Assembly (NCBI GenBank): GCA_017469925.1
Contig: JAFUFK010000013.1
Span: 186,001 to 250,000, forward strand
DNA: 64,000 nt
From: Bacteroidaceae bacterium
GTDB lineage: Bacteria; Bacteroidota; Bacteroidia; Bacteroidales; Bacteroidaceae
Reading direction: 5' to 3'
Below are positions 55,258 through 64,000 of this stretch, piece by piece. Under the pieces are notes generated by a model. It ran no database searches. It saw only the letters and a program-made list of their open reading frames with translations, and had not been told where the DNA came from. Each line of letters begins with the position of its first letter. The stretch's first letter is position 1. A program made the position numbers and the translations under genes.

Positions 55258-55419
55258 TTAACAATTCTCTTTATCTTTGTTTTTATTGTTCGACCGATAC
55301 AAAAGGAATGCTCCTAGAGCCATCCAAAATGCAGGCCCAAATACACTATGACCAGCGGAAACCGCGCCCATGAATGCGAATAATCCCAATACTATAATTA
55401 TCCATCCTGTCGTTTTCAT
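55258..55419 (-). CDS. 53-residue membrane protein
   Basis: Read by hand: an ATG at 55419 opens a frame of 53 codons ending TAA at 55258. There are two hydrophobic helices (GWIIIVLGLFAFMGAVSAG and PAFWMALGAFLLY) and a charged tail NKNKDKENC. It starts 6 bases after the preceding stop, like a genuine operon member. Function unknown. Confidence 0.55.
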   Translation of the reverse strand: MKTTGWIIIVLGLFAFMGAVSAGHSVFGPAFWMALGAFLLYRSNNKNKDKENC

Positions 55420-55425
55420 ATTACA

Positions 55426-55620
55426 TTATTTATTAAATGTGTCATCACTCTTTTCTTCATTCTCTAACTTCTTTGAGCACGCCACCGCAATGATACCGAT
55501 AAGCAGATTGAAGAACGATAGGGCAAAAGCCCAACCAAAGCCAATTTTCCGGGTGCTCCCCCAGCAACCAACTGCCAATGCCAACGATATGGCAATTACA
55601 AATAATAAAAGTACTTCCAT
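55426..55620 (-). CDS. 64-residue membrane protein
   Basis: Two hydrophobic helices (about 3-19 and 28-48), a TRKIGFGWAFALSFFN turn and an acidic tail. The pattern is like small two-helix proteins of the superinfection-immunity type, but similarity is only in shape. It is the first of the small genes following the helicase. Confidence 0.55.
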   Translation of the reverse strand: MEVLLLFVIAISLALAVGCWGSTRKIGFGWAFALSFFNLLIGIIAVACSKKLENEEKSDDTFNK

Positions 55621-55697: not shown

Positions 55698-57749
55698 TCA
55701 TTTTTTTATCTTCATGCAGAATTTCATATAGGCTTCGCTCTTCTTGTCCGCTCCAGATAGCAGTTGATTAAAATCATCTTCCGCCATGTTTTCATCATTA
55801 AATGCCTCAATAAGATTGTTTCCCTCGTCCCCATCCTCAACCGTAAGAAAAGTCTTTTCTTTCAGGACTGTTCTTCTCAGCATCACATAGCCAGGAATAT
55901 AATCTGGGCACATGTTCAACAATTTCAGACAAGCCTTTTTGCTTGGAATCTGGAGTTTGTCATTAATGTGCATTTCCAACAAATACAGTTTCTTGTCTAT
56001 CGGTTTTACATCCATTGCGTTTTGAGCCAGTTCGAAGATTCGTTCTTTCTCATCACGGGCTTCTGCATACCGTCCCAACTCAAACAAAGCGCGGCTTTTG
56101 ATAAATATCGCCTCAAGACACAGCCGTCTGCTAAGAACTAAATCAGCGTATCCTACAGCATCCTCATAACGATTAGCATACAAGCAAATAACAGCATTAA
56201 GAAAGTTTGCGGTCATACTGACATCCCTGCATAAGGGCATATTAGCAGTATATCCCATCAAATGACTGTCGCTCAACATCACATCAAACATCCTCTTACC
56301 CAACAAGGCAGCATCACGCAGTTCATTGTATCTCACTTTCTCCATCAACTGTTCCAAACATGTTTTTGCGGCGGCATCATAATTTCCCGCCCGATAATGC
56401 TTGTAAAACTTCTGCCCTATTTCCAAACCCTCATTTATCATCGCTGCATCGTTAAACGAGTTAGAGAACACCTTTATCTCTGGATTTTGCATTACATGGT
56501 ATGCACGCATAGGGCAACTCAATGTTAAACCCTCCAATGAAGTCATTCGGCTGATTGCCACATACGCTTGTCCTGGTGCAAAAACACCGTGGGACAAATC
56601 CAGATGCATCCGGTCGATAGTCATGCCCTGCGACTTGTGTATCGTTATTGCCCATGCCAGTTTAAGGGGAAACTGCGTATATGTCCCGACGATCTTTGTT
56701 TCCATTTTCTTGGAACTTCGGCTGTAGGTTTTCTTCTTATTCTCCCATGTCACCCTCTCCACTATGCACTCCTGCCCATTCTCCAACTCTACTTTTATTT
56801 TATCCTCATTCAGTTCCGATACAATTGCAATAGTTCCATTGACATATTCTCTATCATGCCCATTCCTACAAAAAATAACCTGCGCCCCGACTTTCAGACG
56901 AAGGTCTACAGGGACTGGTACATTGTTGCGGTTGAAATCACCCGCAAACTTCCCCTCATAAGAATGCTCGTCGGTGCAGAGTTCTTTATATTTCTTCTCG
57001 TTGATGTTCTCCGCCATGAAGTTGTATGCGCTCAATGTCACGGAGTAGTCTTCTGCACAATCTTCGGTCGTTACATGCTGATTCAGCAATTCAAGATCTT
57101 TCACACGCGCCTCACCAATCCTAAGTCTGTCTAAAATTTCAAGGAATACCTTATCGCTTTGCCGATAAACCTTTTGGAACTCAATCTTTTGAAATGTCAT
57201 CCGTTTCAGTACCCGGGCTTTATAGAAATAAGGAACACCCATCCCATACAAGTCCTCCAACATCTCCTCATCGGCGCTGCCCTTCACGACAACAGGCGGC
57301 AATTGGAACAAATCGCCGACAAAGATAACTTGCTTCCCTCCAAATGGAAGATTGTTCTTCAGGAAGATTCTCAGGAATCGGTCCATTCCATCCACGATAT
57401 CGCACCTAACCATAGAGGCCTCATCTATAATAATTGTGTCCACCCTCCGCAAAACATCCCTGTTTCGGCTCCAATTGGCTTCTTGCAATTCCGTATAAGG
57501 GCCTATGGGTTCAAACGGAAAGCCAAAGAATGAATGAATAGTCTGCCCTCCAATTGCTACAGCGGCAATCCCTGTTGGGGCTAACAGAAGGAAGTTCTTC
57601 TCAACCTCTGTCTGAATCCATTTGATAAACGTCGTCTTACCCGTTCCTGCCTTACCTGTAATGAAAAACGACTCGTTAGTCTCTGCTACCAAACCAAAGG
57701 CCTTCATCTGCTCAACATTCGTTGAGTCCAACATTGTCTCTTGTTCCAT
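55698..57749 (-). CDS. PIF1-type superfamily 1 helicase with C-terminal helical repeats
   Basis: 683 residues. Walker A is ITGKAGTGKTTF, motif II is IIDEASMV, and QVIFVGDLFQLPPV and TIHKSQGMT...YVAISRM complete the PIF1/RecD-like set. Residues 470-640 form TPR-like helices. PIF1 relatives unwind DNA and remove structures; in Bacteroidota such stand-alone genes are common with unknown role. It lies at the head of the A+T-rich minus-strand operon. Confidence 0.88.
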   Translation of the reverse strand: MEQETMLDSTNVEQMKAFGLVAETNESFFITGKAGTGKTTFIKWIQTEVEKNFLLLAPTGIAAVAIGGQTIHSFFGFPFEPIGPYTELQEANWSRNRDVLRRVDTIIIDEASMVRCDIVDGMDRFLRIFLKNNLPFGGKQVIFVGDLFQLPPVVVKGSADEEMLEDLYGMGVPYFYKARVLKRMTFQKIEFQKVYRQSDKVFLEILDRLRIGEARVKDLELLNQHVTTEDCAEDYSVTLSAYNFMAENINEKKYKELCTDEHSYEGKFAGDFNRNNVPVPVDLRLKVGAQVIFCRNGHDREYVNGTIAIVSELNEDKIKVELENGQECIVERVTWENKKKTYSRSSKKMETKIVGTYTQFPLKLAWAITIHKSQGMTIDRMHLDLSHGVFAPGQAYVAISRMTSLEGLTLSCPMRAYHVMQNPEIKVFSNSFNDAAMINEGLEIGQKFYKHYRAGNYDAAAKTCLEQLMEKVRYNELRDAALLGKRMFDVMLSDSHLMGYTANMPLCRDVSMTANFLNAVICLYANRYEDAVGYADLVLSRRLCLEAIFIKSRALFELGRYAEARDEKERIFELAQNAMDVKPIDKKLYLLEMHINDKLQIPSKKACLKLLNMCPDYIPGYVMLRRTVLKEKTFLTVEDGDEGNNLIEAFNDENMAEDDFNQLLSGADKKSEAYMKFCMKIKK

Positions 57750-58196: not shown

Positions 58197-60743
58197 TTAA
58201 TCAAGCATTATAAAGGCTGCCCAATAGTAAGGATCGGGATAATGTCTTGCAACTTCTAACTGAGCACGTTTTAACGCACTATGCTTTTCCTCACCCGTGA
58301 ACAGATATTTATAAAATGCCGTCATTAACATTGCGGTAGATTCATCAGGAACTTTCCAGAGGCTCGCGACGATAGTTTCAACACCAGCCATCTTAAATGC
58401 TTTCAATAGTCCACCTATTCCTTCTTGCAGCGTTGTTCCTATTGCGGTTTCACATGCAGAAAGAACGACTAACCTCGTATTGCTAAAATCGAGTAAAGAT
58501 AGTTCCTCTGCTGTTAAGACTCCATCGTCAAGAATCCTTTCATCTGCAATCTCATGTAAGGTTTCATTTGCTCCTGCCATTAGCAAGCCAGAAAGCAGCA
58601 TAGAGTTATCTTTCCTATAATATGTAAATAGAGAATTGAAATAGTCTGTATACTTTTTAAAACCTACTAAGTAGAAAGCATGTGTAGCAAAATGTATGAT
58701 AGATGGAGAACTTCCATCTAAACCGCGGACGGACGTTTCATTTGCCTCAGCACCTTTATACACAACGGTATTACATAGATGGTTGAGGGATATGGCCTCA
58801 ATTGAGTCTGTTTCTTGTTCCGTTGCCTGAAGGAAACTGAATCCGATTGAACCTCCTTCTTTTGCTTCAATCTCTTCAAGTATAAGACTCCTAACCGCAT
58901 GATTGGATGAAGTATCTCTGCCGCCCTTTTCGTACTCTATCCCACCATATATTATTACCGTGTCGTATATTTTTGGGAGCGTGGTTGCCCTTTTGCATAA
59001 TGTCGAAGTTGAGGAAACGATACGAATATCATACTTCTCGTTCAAGAAGCCCCCATCAGGACATGGGATGAAGCCAATATTGACTTGTTGCAAACCAAGA
59101 ATGGGTGAGATATAAATCCTCTTCGCATCACGCACTATTGAGTCCATTCTCTCCCATATCATATGGTATAGTGTATTCCCTTTATACTTAAGATACAATT
59201 TGTTAATACCAAACTCCATACCAATTAGTGAATGCAGTATAGTATCATGAAGTTCCTGTACAGTACATAAATCCACCAATTGGGGAGCATCGCTTTCTTT
59301 GGAGAGAAGAAGCGCACCATATCTTAGCCCACCGCCATCGTCCTCCTCTTCATCCGCAGTTGAAAAGTCTCCATAAGTAATAATCTCTACTGCATACTCA
59401 TTAGGTTGAAGGGCATTCCGTACATCCCGCCACACATAACCGGATGGATTCTTTCCGTGTTCAAAGTTCCTTAGTGCCGCAATAAAAGTTCGTTCTTTCT
59501 CATCCAATAATGTATATATGGATTTATCTGACTCATGTTCACGTTTGGCTTCCCCAACAAACATCCGGCTCCGCAAAGCCTTTATGTCGCCCCACTGTGA
59601 CTTAAGTTCTTCATTCTTGTCTATTGTTTGACGAAGCCGCTGCATACTTTCAAAAACAACATTCTTAAGAAACAAAGCATTGTCATAGCACATCCCTACG
59701 GCATCACAGTTGTTCGCATATTTATCCAATATATTCATGTTCACCTTAAGTTGTAGTGCATACTTATCCCACATCTCTTCAATAATCTTAGATGGGAATG
59801 AAGAATAAGACTCATTACAAATAGATTTCAAATATTGGCTACACATACTCATATATTTGACTGCCTCACTTTCCCGCCCTAAAAAGTAATTCGCCAAAGC
59901 TATACTATTATAGACATTAGACTTTTCTACATCAGATAAATTTAAAGTTTCCATTTGATGTAAAATCCCCAAGGCTTCGTCATATTTACCACTATCTATA
60001 TACAAAATAGCCAGATTATTTGCAGCATTTATGAATTCAGACACATATTCCTCTTTGTCTTTCGACATCTCATATGCCTTGCGTGTATACTCTATTGCTT
60101 CTCTCAGTTGGCCAATATCATGAAAAATGACACCAGCCTTTTGATAAATCCCTATACCTCTGCGCATTGCGTCAGGTGAATTGTCTGTCTCTAATATTGA
60201 AATTGCTTCTTCTATTTCGTTTTTGGCTAATTCTAACTCATCCAAATTTCTATGACACTCCGCTAACATACTAAGTATGACAGCATAAATTCCATCGACT
60301 TCGTTTCGCTCTTTTAAGAAATTCACTACAGTGTCTAAATACAAAGATGCTCGAGAATAATTTTGCAGATTGCTTAGCAATCCGCCATATGTAACATATA
60401 AGCTATAAAAATATGAGGATTTCCGTTCCTCCTTTACCATGAAGTCAATTGCATGGGAAAGGAGTGTGTCTGCGGCATGCAAATTATTAGTTTGTACATA
60501 CACGGTAGACAATAGAGAAACCAGTCCTATATATATGGTATCTTGAAAATCTTCTTGTCCATTCTCAAACATGGATATATGTTGTTCCATGAATGAGACA
60601 GGTTTCTCAAATTTTCTGCTATATATATCTGCAAGTAACTGTTCAACAGAATAGCTATCGTCATACTGGGCCTGTATACCTAATATTGGCGATAAAACTA
60701 TAAATAGTATAAATAGAAGTTTATGGCGTAATAATACCTTCAT
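58197..60743 (-). CDS. Exported TPR-CHAT caspase-like protease
   Basis: 848 residues. A signal peptide (about 1-25, ending GIQAQ) is followed by TPR-type repeats (about 60-340, e.g. AADTLLSHAIDFMVKEE, EAIEYTRKAYEMSK, YDEALGILHQME) and a C-terminal CHAT domain (about 500-848). The catalytic dyad is His688 in HFATHAF and Cys764 in LSACETA, with the usual GLLKAFKMAGVETIVASLW after it. CHAT proteases are activated by partners bound to the TPR part. The signal peptide places it outside the cytoplasm, unlike the type III-E CRISPR TPR-CHAT. It is the last gene of the caspase-sigma-anti-sigma run. Confidence 0.9.
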   Translation of the reverse strand: MKVLLRHKLLFILFIVLSPILGIQAQYDDSYSVEQLLADIYSRKFEKPVSFMEQHISMFENGQEDFQDTIYIGLVSLLSTVYVQTNNLHAADTLLSHAIDFMVKEERKSSYFYSLYVTYGGLLSNLQNYSRASLYLDTVVNFLKERNEVDGIYAVILSMLAECHRNLDELELAKNEIEEAISILETDNSPDAMRRGIGIYQKAGVIFHDIGQLREAIEYTRKAYEMSKDKEEYVSEFINAANNLAILYIDSGKYDEALGILHQMETLNLSDVEKSNVYNSIALANYFLGRESEAVKYMSMCSQYLKSICNESYSSFPSKIIEEMWDKYALQLKVNMNILDKYANNCDAVGMCYDNALFLKNVVFESMQRLRQTIDKNEELKSQWGDIKALRSRMFVGEAKREHESDKSIYTLLDEKERTFIAALRNFEHGKNPSGYVWRDVRNALQPNEYAVEIITYGDFSTADEEEDDGGGLRYGALLLSKESDAPQLVDLCTVQELHDTILHSLIGMEFGINKLYLKYKGNTLYHMIWERMDSIVRDAKRIYISPILGLQQVNIGFIPCPDGGFLNEKYDIRIVSSTSTLCKRATTLPKIYDTVIIYGGIEYEKGGRDTSSNHAVRSLILEEIEAKEGGSIGFSFLQATEQETDSIEAISLNHLCNTVVYKGAEANETSVRGLDGSSPSIIHFATHAFYLVGFKKYTDYFNSLFTYYRKDNSMLLSGLLMAGANETLHEIADERILDDGVLTAEELSLLDFSNTRLVVLSACETAIGTTLQEGIGGLLKAFKMAGVETIVASLWKVPDESTAMLMTAFYKYLFTGEEKHSALKRAQLEVARHYPDPYYWAAFIMLD

Positions 60744-60744
60744 T

Positions 60745-60905
60745 CAATGACCTGTAATAATTCTCTTACTTTATCCCCAACTGCTGTGCTATCGAGGTAT
60801 CTTTGTTCCATTTACGAAGAATAGCCTCGGTCTTCTCCATATCATCATTATCAATATATCCACGGACAGACTTTGGTCTATCTCAATTATCTTTATCAAC
60901 CTTTT
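60745..60905 (-). pseudogene. Decayed second copy of the anti-sigma gene 3' end
   Basis: On the minus strand one frame reads GYIDNDDMEKTEAILRKWN and another reads STAVGDKVRELLQVIE before a stop. Together they align with the end of the intact anti-sigma-like gene (GYLKNNDKTKAKTVLTKLQ, then GTAVGDKVRELNRKL) across one frameshift. Only the last 40-50 codons remain. It sits between the RhuM gene and the TPR-CHAT gene. Bases 60906-60954 hold nothing I can name. Confidence 0.75.
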
Positions 60906-60954
60906 ACTATTTCCCAATGTCCGCCCTTGTAGCAGAAACCTGTTTGGGCAGAGT

Positions 60955-61986
60955 CTAGGTGGTTCCTGGCAGACCTTTCTCCTTCTGTATCAATTCCCGA
61001 ATGGCTCTGTCGTAGTCGCTCTCATATTGTAGCATTTCCATCTGACGGTATTTCTCAAACTCCGCTATAGCCTTTCTTTTGGCTTCTTCGTGAGTAATCG
61101 TTCCTTTGCCTACGAGTAACTGCCTACCAGATAGTTTCATCAGTTCGTCAAGTTTCTCTATCCACTCTACCATCTTCATAGGCTTCTCTTGTAGTGCCTG
61201 AACTTCCGCAAAGTCTAAGTACTGCGATACCAACAGATTCAAGTACGTCAGTTCCTGTTCCGTCAGGTAGTTCTTGGCTATCTGCACATCTTCTTTCGTG
61301 ATATAGTTGCCTTTGAAGTTCGTCATACCCACCATCGGCTTATTGGCATCCACCCTGTCATATACCAACTCTGCTGCGGTATGCTGGTGTGCGGCATAGT
61401 GCAGTTTGTTCTGTACTGTTGCAAAGAAGTGTTTTGTAAGGTTCGCAGTAGGGTCATAGTCTATGCTGGTAATGAAGATGTCAGTCACCTGCTGATAGAG
61501 GTTACGTTCACTGCTACGAATGTCACGAATACGTTGCAGCAGTTCCCTAAAATAACGGTTGCGATTGCCCTTCAAACGATTATCGTCCAACACAAATCCT
61601 TTCTGTATGAATTCACGCAGACGTGCCGTAGCCCATTGGCGAAAGCGAGTAGCCACTTGGGACTTCACACGATAACCCACAGCGATAATCATGTCCAGAT
61701 TGTAATGATTCATCTGTCGCTTAACGCTTCTGTCCCCCTCTTGGCGAACTATCAAAAATTTTTTGAGAGTTCGTTCTGGGGCTTGTTCACCTTCCTCATA
61801 AATCTGATTGATGTGGTAACTCACGTCCTGTCGCGAAGCATCAAACAACTCCATCATCTGCTCTTGGGTCAGCCAGACATCCTCGCCCTCAAACCTTACA
61901 TTTACACGCGCGATTCCGTTATCATCTTGATATATCAAGAACGACTGATTTCTGTCTGCTAATTCGTTATTGTCTTTTTTTGTCAT
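60955..61986 (-). CDS. RhuM family protein
   Basis: 343 residues. VRFEGEDVWLTQEQMMELFDASRQDVSYHINQIYEEGE and the following YNLDMIIAVGYRVKSQVATRFRQWAT segment, read in parts, are the RhuM family signature. The C-terminal half is helical and charged. RhuM proteins are found in mobile islands and near restriction or Fic-type genes; their biochemical role is not known. It starts 8 bases after the anti-sigma stop and separates the sigma pair from the CHAT gene, so it looks like a later insertion. Confidence 0.87.
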   Translation of the reverse strand: MTKKDNNELADRNQSFLIYQDDNGIARVNVRFEGEDVWLTQEQMMELFDASRQDVSYHINQIYEEGEQAPERTLKKFLIVRQEGDRSVKRQMNHYNLDMIIAVGYRVKSQVATRFRQWATARLREFIQKGFVLDDNRLKGNRNRYFRELLQRIRDIRSSERNLYQQVTDIFITSIDYDPTANLTKHFFATVQNKLHYAAHQHTAAELVYDRVDANKPMVGMTNFKGNYITKEDVQIAKNYLTEQELTYLNLLVSQYLDFAEVQALQEKPMKMVEWIEKLDELMKLSGRQLLVGKGTITHEEAKRKAIAEFEKYRQMEMLQYESDYDRAIRELIQKEKGLPGTT

Positions 61987-61994
61987 ATTACTAT

Positions 61995-62732
61995 CTATAA
62001 CTTTCTATTAAGTTCCCTAACTTTATCTCCCACTGCCGTTCCCTCATGATTCATTTCTTGCAACTTGGTCAGGACTGTCTTTGCCTTGGTCTTATCATTG
62101 TTCTTCAAGTAACCGATGGCAAGGTTCCAACCAATTTCGGCAGCGTATGCCGTATAGTCATTGTAAGTATCAGAGGTTGAAAGTTCCCAGCATTGCTGCA
62201 ACTCTGCGAGCGTGTGCTTCAGGTCTGTCTTCGTCTTTACATTGCTGAACAGAGAATCCAGATGCTGTTCTACTTCTGTTATTTCCGCACCTCTCGCCAA
62301 AAGAGATGTTTCAAAAGCATTCTCATATTCTGCGGCAAGAGCCGTCGTCATTCTGTAATCATAGTATTCTATACCTATCCAGAAGATAAATACCAGTGAG
62401 GCTGCCAAAGATAATATATAGGATACCTTGCGGAGGGTAACGACTTTAGCCTTTGGCTTATCTACAGTCTTGTCTATAATCTGTTTTATCTCCTTTTCAC
62501 TTGCATTGCGCAATGCCTCTGTCGTTTCCTTGTCCCGAGCCGTTCCCACCTGCTTTAGACCTTTCGTGAGGCGGGCAATGGCAATGGCTCGTTCCTTCAA
62601 CTGAGGATTCTCTTTCAGTTCTTGTATGAAGGCTTGCTCCTTTTCTTCCGACATCTGTCCACGGAGGTAGGCATCGATGCGGGCATCCTCCTGGAGGCGT
62701 TTCTCGTCTATGTTGTTTATGTCTGTCGTCAT
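61995..62732 (-). CDS. Membrane-bound anti-sigma-like protein
   Basis: 245 residues from the ATG at 62732. The cytoplasmic N-terminal part (about 1-125) begins with DARIDAYLRGQMSEEKEQAF, the common opening of Bacteroidota anti-sigma proteins. One transmembrane helix follows (about 105-125; VSYILSLAASLVFIFWIGI), then a helical outer part with a TPR-like unit at the end (AIGYLKNNDKTKAKTVLTKL). It is 10 bases downstream of the sigma factor gene. Anti-sigma function is inferred from position and topology. Confidence 0.78.
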   Translation of the reverse strand: MTTDINNIDEKRLQEDARIDAYLRGQMSEEKEQAFIQELKENPQLKERAIAIARLTKGLKQVGTARDKETTEALRNASEKEIKQIIDKTVDKPKAKVVTLRKVSYILSLAASLVFIFWIGIEYYDYRMTTALAAEYENAFETSLLARGAEITEVEQHLDSLFSNVKTKTDLKHTLAELQQCWELSTSDTYNDYTAYAAEIGWNLAIGYLKNNDKTKAKTVLTKLQEMNHEGTAVGDKVRELNRKL

Positions 62733-62742
62733 ACGCTTGAAA

Positions 62743-63318
62743 TCATTTGTCTTCTTCAAATATGTCCTTTGAAAGCCGCTGGTAGTGTTCCCGGAACTTC
62801 TCACAACAACGATGTTTAGTTACTTTCACCGTTCCCTCACTCTTGTAACCGAACATCTCAGCCATTGTCTTCATGGAGAATCCGTCGCGATAGAATCCCC
62901 ACAGAATGTTGTTGCAGGGTTCGGGCATATCGCTCACTATCTGACGCACCAAGTGGTCTTTGCGCTCCGCGATTTCGGTGTCGTCATCCTCCAGCGCCAA
63001 CAGTTTGTCGATGCGGTCGTCTTCGTATTCGCTCTTGGTCGTGTCTGGGTATTCGTCTATGATGTTCAACTCCTTTCCTCGCTTGCGAAGCAACTCATGG
63101 GCCTTGTTCCTGCATATCGCATTGAAGTAGGTAGAGAGGGAAGACCTCAGGTCATCCAGTTTGCCCTCCTTTATCTGCCGGTATAGCACAAGGAAGGAAT
63201 CTTGAAAGATGTTTTCGCAATCCACGCGCTGCAATGAGAAAGTACCTTGCAGGAAAGCCAAGGTTTTCTCCCATTGTTCAGAGGCAAACTTATTTAATTG
63301 TTGTTCCGTATATGCCAT
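62743..63318 (-). CDS. ECF-type RNA polymerase sigma factor
   Basis: 191 residues from the ATG at 63318 (MAYTEQQLNKFAS). Region 2 is seen in DCENIFQDSFLVLYRQI and TYFNAICRNKAHELLRKR. Region 4 is seen in FYRDGFSMKTMAEMFGYKSEGTVKVTKHRC, including the helix-turn-helix. Between them is an acidic linker (EYPDTTKSEYEDDRID). It lies 5 bases after the caspase-like gene and 10 before the anti-sigma-like gene. It is probably released by regulated proteolysis or autoregulates this operon (inference). Confidence 0.9.
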   Translation of the reverse strand: MAYTEQQLNKFASEQWEKTLAFLQGTFSLQRVDCENIFQDSFLVLYRQIKEGKLDDLRSSLSTYFNAICRNKAHELLRKRGKELNIIDEYPDTTKSEYEDDRIDKLLALEDDDTEIAERKDHLVRQIVSDMPEPCNNILWGFYRDGFSMKTMAEMFGYKSEGTVKVTKHRCCEKFREHYQRLSKDIFEEDK

Positions 63319-63323
63319 TGGGT

Positions 63324-64000
63324 TTATTTCAGACTTGTTTCGTAAACCATGTTCTGCCGCACCAGTCGTCTGTCGGCGTCCATCATGCGCTTTATCTCCA
63401 GAATCCATGTAAGGGAAGGAGAGATGGCGGATATCTCTAATGTTTTTGTCACATAAAACGAAAGAGGACCATAATATTTGCCGTCCTGCTTTATCTCATA
63501 ATTCGACTGATAAGAGCGGCAGGCTTCAAGAATCGCGATGTGGGAAAGGTCTGGCGAATTGGGAATCGTGAAATGCCCCAGCGCATTGATTCGGGGGCGA
63601 TAGGGCTTGTCCGTTGCACTGAAACCTCGCTTCGTACCTCTGCAAAAGGCTTCTTCGGTATCTTCCTCGTCACCTCGGGATGAACCACCGGCGTGACAGG
63701 CATCTATCACTACGCAGACAAAGCCCGCCTTGCCCACGGCCTTTCTCATCTGTTGCAGATAGGAATGGAGTTCGTCGTCCAATATATGGCTGTTGCCTTC
63801 GTATTTTCCCTTGACATATTTCATCTGCGCATCGTAGGGCACAATGGCTTCGTCCCATCCGTCTTCCTCGTCCCCATCCAAATCCTCCACGGGCTGACCG
63901 TGACAAGAGAAATGAAAATAGACCATGTCTCCAACTTTCACCCGTTGCGCCAGTGCTTTCAGTTCCTTCCTTATCCGTTGGGCAGTAGCCTCCCGATTGC
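63324..64000 (-). CDS. Caspase-like (C14) protease, N-terminus outside the window
   Basis: The frame is open to the window edge; about 225 C-terminal residues are visible, starting NREATAQRIRKELKALAQR. The catalytic His lies in YFHFSCHGQP and the catalytic Cys in VVIDACHAGG. Between them is the acidic DLDGDEEDGWDEAIVPYD loop seen in metacaspase-type enzymes. A second conserved stretch IAILEACRSYQSNYE follows. Whether it has a signal peptide or fused sensor cannot be seen. It is the first visible gene of the sigma/anti-sigma/CHAT run. Confidence 0.9.
   Translation of the reverse strand, partial: NREATAQRIRKELKALAQRVKVGDMVYFHFSCHGQPVEDLDGDEEDGWDEAIVPYDAQMKYVKGKYEGNSHILDDELHSYLQQMRKAVGKAGFVCVVIDACHAGGSSRGDEEDTEEAFCRGTKRGFSATDKPYRPRINALGHFTIPNSPDLSHIAILEACRSYQSNYEIKQDGKYYGPLSFYVTKTLEISAISPSLTWILEIKRMMDADRRLVRQNMVYETSLK

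Follow-up and report, generated by a model that had tools for sequence, protein, structure and literature searches.

Why should an extracytoplasmic function (ECF) sigma factor be encoded in one run of genes with two caspase-type proteases? The question is raised by a locus of a Bacteroidaceae bacterium, which we studied within a stretch of 64,000 nucleotides (hereafter, the window) that corresponds to positions 186001-250000 of contig JAFUFK010000013.1 (genome G000, contig C20). Five genes, all on the minus strand, were studied at 58197-64000 of the window. These encode a metacaspase-like peptidase C14 (hereafter, the caspase), an ECF-type sigma factor, an anti-sigma-like protein with one membrane helix, a RhuM protein, and an exported protease with tetratricopeptide repeats (TPRs) and a CHAT domain (TPR-CHAT; hereafter, CHAT). 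A preliminary description had placed the five genes here with gaps of 5, 10 and 8 bases across the first four, and the open reading frame (ORF) coordinates bore this out (caspase-sigma 5, sigma-anti-sigma 10, anti-sigma-RhuM 8), with a further gap of 211 bases between RhuM and CHAT. Our answer, held with moderate confidence, is that the locus encodes a periplasmic proteolytic switch of the sigma factor that is free of clustered regularly interspaced short palindromic repeats (CRISPR), in which the caspase, CHAT or both would cut the anti-sigma protein at R147-G148.

The gene set is not a chance arrangement, because the same four genes recurred in independently found relatives. A scan of the genome contigs with the sigma protein returned 15 loci, with the caspase in 14 and CHAT in 13, and the misses fell at contig ends. 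Of the 14 loci with a caspase, 11 have its gene adjacent to sigma and three have it after CHAT. An anti-sigma profile search of 399 genomes of the family matched 40, from which 20 and a further four places were fetched, the unfetched rest all being weak. All 19 strong relatives (at least 60 bits, L107-L125, window excluded) had a caspase beside sigma and a CHAT in the fetched stretch; the CHAT of L121 is a fragment at a contig end, the sigma and caspase of L113 were recognised by stop-to-stop reading, and four of the 19 repeat loci of the sigma search. Among the weaker family matches, L128 and L129 had both proteases, L127 had CHAT only, and L126 and L130 had neither. The conserved core is the caspase, the ECF sigma factor, the one-helix anti-sigma-like protein and the exported TPR-CHAT. 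The preliminary description had linked the proteases to the sigma/anti-sigma pair and asked whether the four genes co-occur without RhuM; they do, and the 55 related stretches searched (at least four of which repeat others) yielded no RhuM relative.

Farther out in the phylum the association was looser. The anti-sigma profile matched 45 of 395 phylum genomes, all weakly except for the window's own, and none of the 16 fetched places had a caspase; CHAT was nearby in seven (L131, L134-L136, L138, L139 and L144) and absent from the stretch in nine. The outcome that the preliminary description had named as fatal, that such pairs usually occur without the proteases, was thus not seen among close relatives, but the distant pairs came without a caspase throughout and in more than half of the places without a nearby CHAT. 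CHAT itself was detected in 101 of the 198 phylum genomes searched.

Both proteases have intact catalytic residues and carry predicted export signals. The caspase gene occupies 63324-64000 and starts 232 bases past the window edge (64232 in window coordinates); the full 302-residue form was taken from the surrounding contig (stretch L002). It has a peptidase C14 domain (PF00656, 65.6 bits vs a cut-off of 21.4) with a His-Cys dyad, H111 and C179, that is invariant in 13 of 13 aligned caspases. Its nearest relatives were metacaspases by sequence, and metacaspase 9 and MALT1 by fold. The N-terminus, MLKSYTKNIFQLVLILSLALPLRVHGQ, reads as a signal sequence, and a simple hydrophobicity test detected a hydrophobic segment at the N-terminus of all 28 distinct caspases vs 11 of 89 ECF proteins taken as background, although the segment of the window caspase scored below a stricter threshold. 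CHAT (848 residues, 58197-60743) matched PF12770 with 173.9 bits (cut-off 24) and has TPRs together with the His688 and Cys764 named in the preliminary description; the two residues are kept in 15 of 15 full-length copies, three TPR-only rows and one truncated row of the alignment being set aside. Its export, also proposed earlier, agrees with an N-terminal hydrophobic segment in the window protein, in 45 of 45 CHATs longer than 600 residues from the sigma- and anti-sigma-search loci (41 distinct; seven of the 45 from L131 and later) and in 59 of 66 CHATs of a phylum sample, for which one CHAT place, mostly the best-scoring, was hand-picked from each of 60 CHAT-bearing genomes. No solved relative of CHAT was found by sequence at E 0.01. 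Because both proteases have such segments, they should face the outer side of the inner membrane, like the C-terminal half of the anti-sigma protein. A two-sided switch had been proposed, with a cytoplasmic or membrane caspase cutting on the inner side and CHAT on the outer; we rejected it because the caspase has its own signal sequence.

The sigma factor (191 residues, 62743-63318) is of the ECF type, with a TIGR02937 match of 57.8 bits (cut-off 42.9); the Pfam sigma region 2 and region 4 models scored below their cut-offs. The anti-sigma-like protein (245 residues, 61995-62732) is encoded directly after it. An inner N-terminal part is followed by one hydrophobic helix (residues 102-124; the codons at 62370-62423 cover residues of about 104-121), an outer stem and an outer helical domain, and this layout fits the membrane anti-sigma class. 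We infer that the protein is an anti-sigma factor that holds sigma. Profile searches with it gave no family over the cut-off and no solved relative, and a structure search gave weak matches, the best being a prolyl hydroxylase subunit (E 0.077), with Fis1, a TPR fold, at E 0.19.

A candidate cleavage site lies in the stem. The stem is otherwise variable, and a single Arg (R147 in the window; R147-G148 codons at 62289-62294) is invariant in a 12-row alignment and nearly always followed by Gly. In the structure model R147 sits in a low-confidence loop (block mean of the predicted local distance difference test, pLDDT, 58) between the membrane helix and the confident helical outer domain. Stem Arg-Gly was present in 26 of the 28 distinct caspase-bearing pairs (six duplicate loci dropped) vs 3.0 expected when each stem was shuffled, the remaining two having Arg-Ala and Arg-Ser; with L113 added, the count was 27 of 29.

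The caspase would be expected to cut at such a site. Its Asp177, two residues before Cys179, is invariant in the 13-row caspase alignment. Characterised caspase homologues, in the part of the literature used here, prefer a basic P1 residue and have acidic pocket residues such as D95/D211 of TbMC2 (PMC8283722), and from the matching position of Asp177 we predict cleavage after Arg or Lys. PmC11 of Parabacteroides merdae, a clan-CD protease, is described as activating itself by cutting Lys147-Ala148 (PMC4850288). Metacaspases, orthocaspases and PmC11 thus resemble the window caspase in the caspase fold, the His-Cys dyad, the acidic pocket and the basic P1, and PmC11 in processing after a basic residue; PmC11 differs in belonging to family C11, not C14, and the portions of these two papers used here describe no sigma or anti-sigma partner for PmC11 or metacaspases (PMC8283722, PMC4850288). 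The window caspase also contains an invariant Arg-Gly of its own, in an acidic linker between p20 and p10 after the catalytic Cys (R198-G199, codons at 63636-63641; Arg-Gly in 28 of 28 distinct caspases). In the model, the linker residues on either side (181-195 and 199-205) fall under pLDDT 50. We take the caspase as a probable zymogen, with R198-G199 as the point at which it cuts itself or is cut by CHAT. CHAT was also considered as a caspase substrate through a common Arg-Gly, and was dropped as no common position was seen across CHATs.

The stem site tracked the presence of the proteases. R-[GSA] was found 15-38 residues after the helix in 28 of 29 caspase loci, in 24 of 31 pairs with CHAT and no caspase, and in 2 of 34 pairs with no CHAT nearby; the shuffle expectations, with L113 still in the CHAT-only set, were 5.1/28, 5.7/32 and 5.1/34. 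The CHAT-only set combined 23 distinct pairs from the phylum sample, in each of which a one-helix protein closely followed the ECF protein and CHAT lay within 4 kb, with eight earlier caspase-free pairs; two pairs whose CHAT was over 4 kb distant were left out of the counts. The control combined ECF relatives from 20 CHAT-free genomes (30 loci, 24 usable) with 11 earlier no-CHAT pairs, one repeat being dropped; some genomes behind these 11 carry CHAT elsewhere. The contrast between the CHAT-only and no-CHAT sets survived clustering of the stems (5/7 vs 0/23 at 30% identity, 14/21 vs 2/32 at 40%), which removes shared descent only roughly. Strict Arg-Gly was more frequent where a caspase was present (27/29 vs 12/31, not corrected for descent). 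These alignments and counts thus support the earlier proposal of an exported protease acting on the outer portion of the anti-sigma protein. Separately, a different type of anti-sigma protein was seen near CHAT, with a conserved stem motif G[IVL]R[SA] in L163, L164, L171, L175, L182 and L183 and AVRA in L193, a second version of Arg followed by a small residue.

A sequence of events can be proposed from these features. In the resting state, the one-helix protein would hold sigma at the inner membrane while both proteases are exported. An envelope signal, perhaps sensed by the TPR part of CHAT or by the outer helical domain of the anti-sigma protein, would lead a clan-CD protease to cut the stem after Arg147, about 25 residues outside the membrane. 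An M50 site-2 protease, of which one is present in the genome, and cytoplasmic proteases would then free sigma, whose regulon would include its own operon and CHAT. The caspase zymogen would mature through a cut at R198-G199, made by the caspase or by CHAT, and the anti-sigma stem resembles this activation site. CHAT may activate the caspase, as is reported for the SAVED-CHAT/PCaspase cascade, or the caspase may activate CHAT. In regulated intramembrane proteolysis of the RseA type, a one-helix ECF anti-sigma is cut by a DegS-type serine protease as the site-1 enzyme. The window module is similar in its one-helix anti-sigma protein, the predicted outer site-1 cut in the stem and the M50 protease in the genome, and differs in that the predicted site-1 enzyme is the caspase or CHAT, of clan CD and Arg-specific, encoded with sigma. 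DegS, RseA and RseP are discussed in the portion of the Craspase literature used here (PMC10028731).

A promoter-like motif bears on the last of these steps. AAAGGTAAC-N(17-18)-TTGTA, with at most one mismatch per half, occurred just before or at the caspase start in seven loci (L117-L119 and L121-L124, a group named after the motif was seen) and also before the separately placed CHAT in two of them, L119 and L123. Five exact copies of the motif were counted across the seven genomes; they fall in four genomes and only at the loci named, vs four matches for a reversed-pattern control. Its presence before both the caspase and CHAT suggests autoregulation. A wider form, CTTTTATAC ... AAAGGTAAC-N17/18-TTGTA, was common to the caspase operon and the separate CHAT gene.

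Several points weigh against a periplasmic switch driven by the two proteases. The 15-38 range was set with the caspase loci already in view. Some of the control pairs come from other anti-sigma families and a single class supplied all 20 CHAT-free genomes, so that part of the site contrast could reflect shared descent. In seven of the 31 CHAT-only stems, R-[GSA] is missing from the 15-38 range. The N-terminal part of the anti-sigma protein has no recognised anti-sigma domain, and its structure model is of low confidence. An ECF gene was recognised by profile at only 27 of the 60 sampled phylum CHAT places, so the link between CHAT and a sigma factor is not constant. The motif was not found before the window caspase, where only a housekeeping-like TATCTTTG was visible by eye, nor at L114-L116, L120 and L125. 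Finally, the site is also found where no caspase is near, and may thus belong to CHAT alone.

This last point leads to the strongest rival, in which CHAT by itself is the site-1 protease and the caspase is a later addition in the family, an output or second-tier effector made when sigma is active. The occurrence of sigma, anti-sigma and CHAT without a caspase elsewhere in the phylum, with the Arg-small stem site in most such pairs, speaks for CHAT as the cutter, as does the presence of CHAT in about half of the phylum genomes searched. On the other hand, the stricter Arg-Gly at loci with a caspase speaks for the caspase as the cutter, the caspase linker has the same Arg-Gly throughout, and the caspase adjoins sigma in most loci of the sigma search and in all 19 of the anti-sigma search. 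We regard CHAT acting alone as unlikely, though it is the most serious competitor.

In a second rival, the proteases are outputs only; another signal, or a DegS-type or other protease, controls sigma, and the exported pair has envelope or foreign proteins as its targets. In several loci CHAT is encoded away from sigma, and the common promoter-like motif suggests that sigma drives both the caspase and CHAT, as this rival would have it. It leaves unexplained why the stem Arg site tracks CHAT and the caspase and why the stem resembles the caspase linker, and we consider it improbable. The switch in which one or both proteases cut the stem remains the reading that we prefer.

RhuM was rejected as a working part of this switch, both from its absence in the related stretches and from a remnant beside CHAT. 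The gene (60955-61986; PF13310, 354 bits) matches the PADLOC candidate PDC-S05 and is a window-specific insert; it is present in the run as the preliminary description had it, but lies outside the conserved set. Two frame pieces in the gap from RhuM to CHAT correspond, in order, to the last part of the anti-sigma model (model 198-218, weak, E 0.0044; 215-233, E 2.4e-5), the second abutting the CHAT start. From these protein-frame matches, and not from the DNA, which aligned to the anti-sigma gene of the window with a score of 50, not above shuffles (maximum 56), we take 60744-60882 on the minus strand as the probable decayed 3' end of an older anti-sigma gene, a trace of RhuM insertion or exchange. 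In 4 of the 15 sigma-search loci (L040, L041, L042 and L047) the slot taken by RhuM in the window, with anti-sigma on one side and CHAT on the other, is filled by a 320-residue gene, which in L041 (9302-10264) encodes AbiH (PF14253, 171 bits), the other three being identical in sequence. That the locus is an anti-phage or cell-death module, in which phage damage sets off the proteases and sigma directs a defence programme, would fit these AbiH genes, RhuM/PDC-S05 and the anti-phage role of the related CRISPR systems, but seems very improbable given that a domain search of the locus proteins found no nucleic-acid or nucleotide sensor domain, that both proteases carry export signals, that the four identical AbiH proteins may represent one event and that the inserts may show only the tolerance of the slot.

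The slot may also hold TPR-only proteins with a signal-like N-terminus (L035:9403-10776, L036:2860-4233, L038:9271-10677 and L110:8100-9509, the last by length and score only), which may be partners of CHAT from which the protease domain was lost. What had looked like three tandem CHATs in L035 and L036 was set aside, the first being TPR-only.

How does the module relate to known protease-sigma systems? The preliminary description had stated that no CRISPR part is present, and the surrounding 19 kb showed no CRISPR-like repeat array; by eye, the locus ORF lists, on which no Cas7-11 model was run, contained no recognisable cas genes. A Cas1 gene lies on another contig of the same genome (C6:383348-384142), and the host thus has or had a CRISPR system. 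We did not file the module under Craspase, CalpL-CalpT-CalpS or SAVED-CHAT, because there was no type III-E sigma match over the cut-off, no SAVED match in CHAT or the caspase (up to E 1), no nearby CRISPR-like array and an extracytoplasmic site of predicted action. Closest in its parts list is the SAVED-CHAT/PCaspase system, in which, reportedly (Steens et al., Science, 2024), a CRISPR-linked CHAT activated by cyclic triadenylate (cA3) through SAVED activates PCaspase, which acts on neighbours including an inhibitor and a sigma factor. It differs from the window module, where CHAT has TPRs and no SAVED match and both proteases and the target stem would lie outside the cytoplasm. The type III-B SAVED-CHAT protease is cited in the portions of two papers used here, in one of them as a cascade of proteolytic activity (PMC11229360; also PMC11417357).

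Craspase, or CASP, comprises the type III-E Cas7-11, Csx29 (a TPR-CHAT), Csx30 and CASP-sigma. It is similar in that a TPR-CHAT neighbours an ECF sigma factor and the inhibitor of that factor, with inhibitor cutting proposed to free sigma and autoregulation of the locus also proposed; it differs in being RNA-guided, and the part of its description used here mentions no second caspase, membrane helix or export signal (PMC10028731). The window sigma scored 36 bits with the III-E sigma model, vs a cut-off of 100. In CalpL-CalpT-CalpS, too, an ECF sigma factor is set free when a protease cleaves an anti-sigma, but CalpL, as described in the portion used here, is a Lon-type protease with a SAVED sensor, driven by cyclic tetraadenylate (cA4), and no caspase-fold protease takes part (PMC11417357). 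The pairing of a caspase homologue with sigma-70 has a precedent in a 2012 survey, which, in the part used here, lists it in four predicted operons of Myxococcus xanthus and also in Anaeromyxobacter, Haliangium, Sorangium, Ralstonia and Fibrobacter (PMC3501461). That text is without mention of CHAT or an anti-sigma, gives no cut site or export, and does not name Bacteroidetes in its section on the arrangement (PMC3501461). In the open-access literature searched, we saw no description of the stem site or of a non-CRISPR operon that combines a caspase, CHAT, an ECF sigma factor and an anti-sigma, although the main ECF reclassification may list such groups.

What is known of bacterial caspase-type proteases comes mostly from cell death and from CRISPR-linked defence. 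In this locus, the pair resembles an integral activating part of a stress-type sigma system that works beyond the inner membrane, and a candidate cut site is defined. More tentatively, and with less confidence than for the switch itself, the module may represent an extracytoplasmic pathway of caspase type that is widespread in Bacteroidota, with an exported CHAT to which some Bacteroidales add an exported metacaspase-like zymogen. The proteases would form a cascade with an ECF anti-sigma as its final target, a mimic of the Arg-Gly activation site of the caspase, and the pathway would be a CRISPR-free relative, possibly the source, of the CRISPR-linked CHAT/caspase sigma switches. The CHAT-linked form is found in several families of the phylum and so bears on many uncharacterised loci, perhaps including the metacaspase-sigma-70 operons of 2012 (PMC3501461).

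Two further kinds of gene accompanied the module. Downstream of it lie tiny proteins that look membrane-like by eye and have no Pfam match, at 55258-55620 in the window and in L033, L037, L039, L041 and L043. A Pif1-like helicase with a TPR-like tail was repeatedly found nearby, at 55698-57749 in the window and in L037 (7721-9778), L043 (11183-13243), L114 (736-2790) and L128 (15977-18001).

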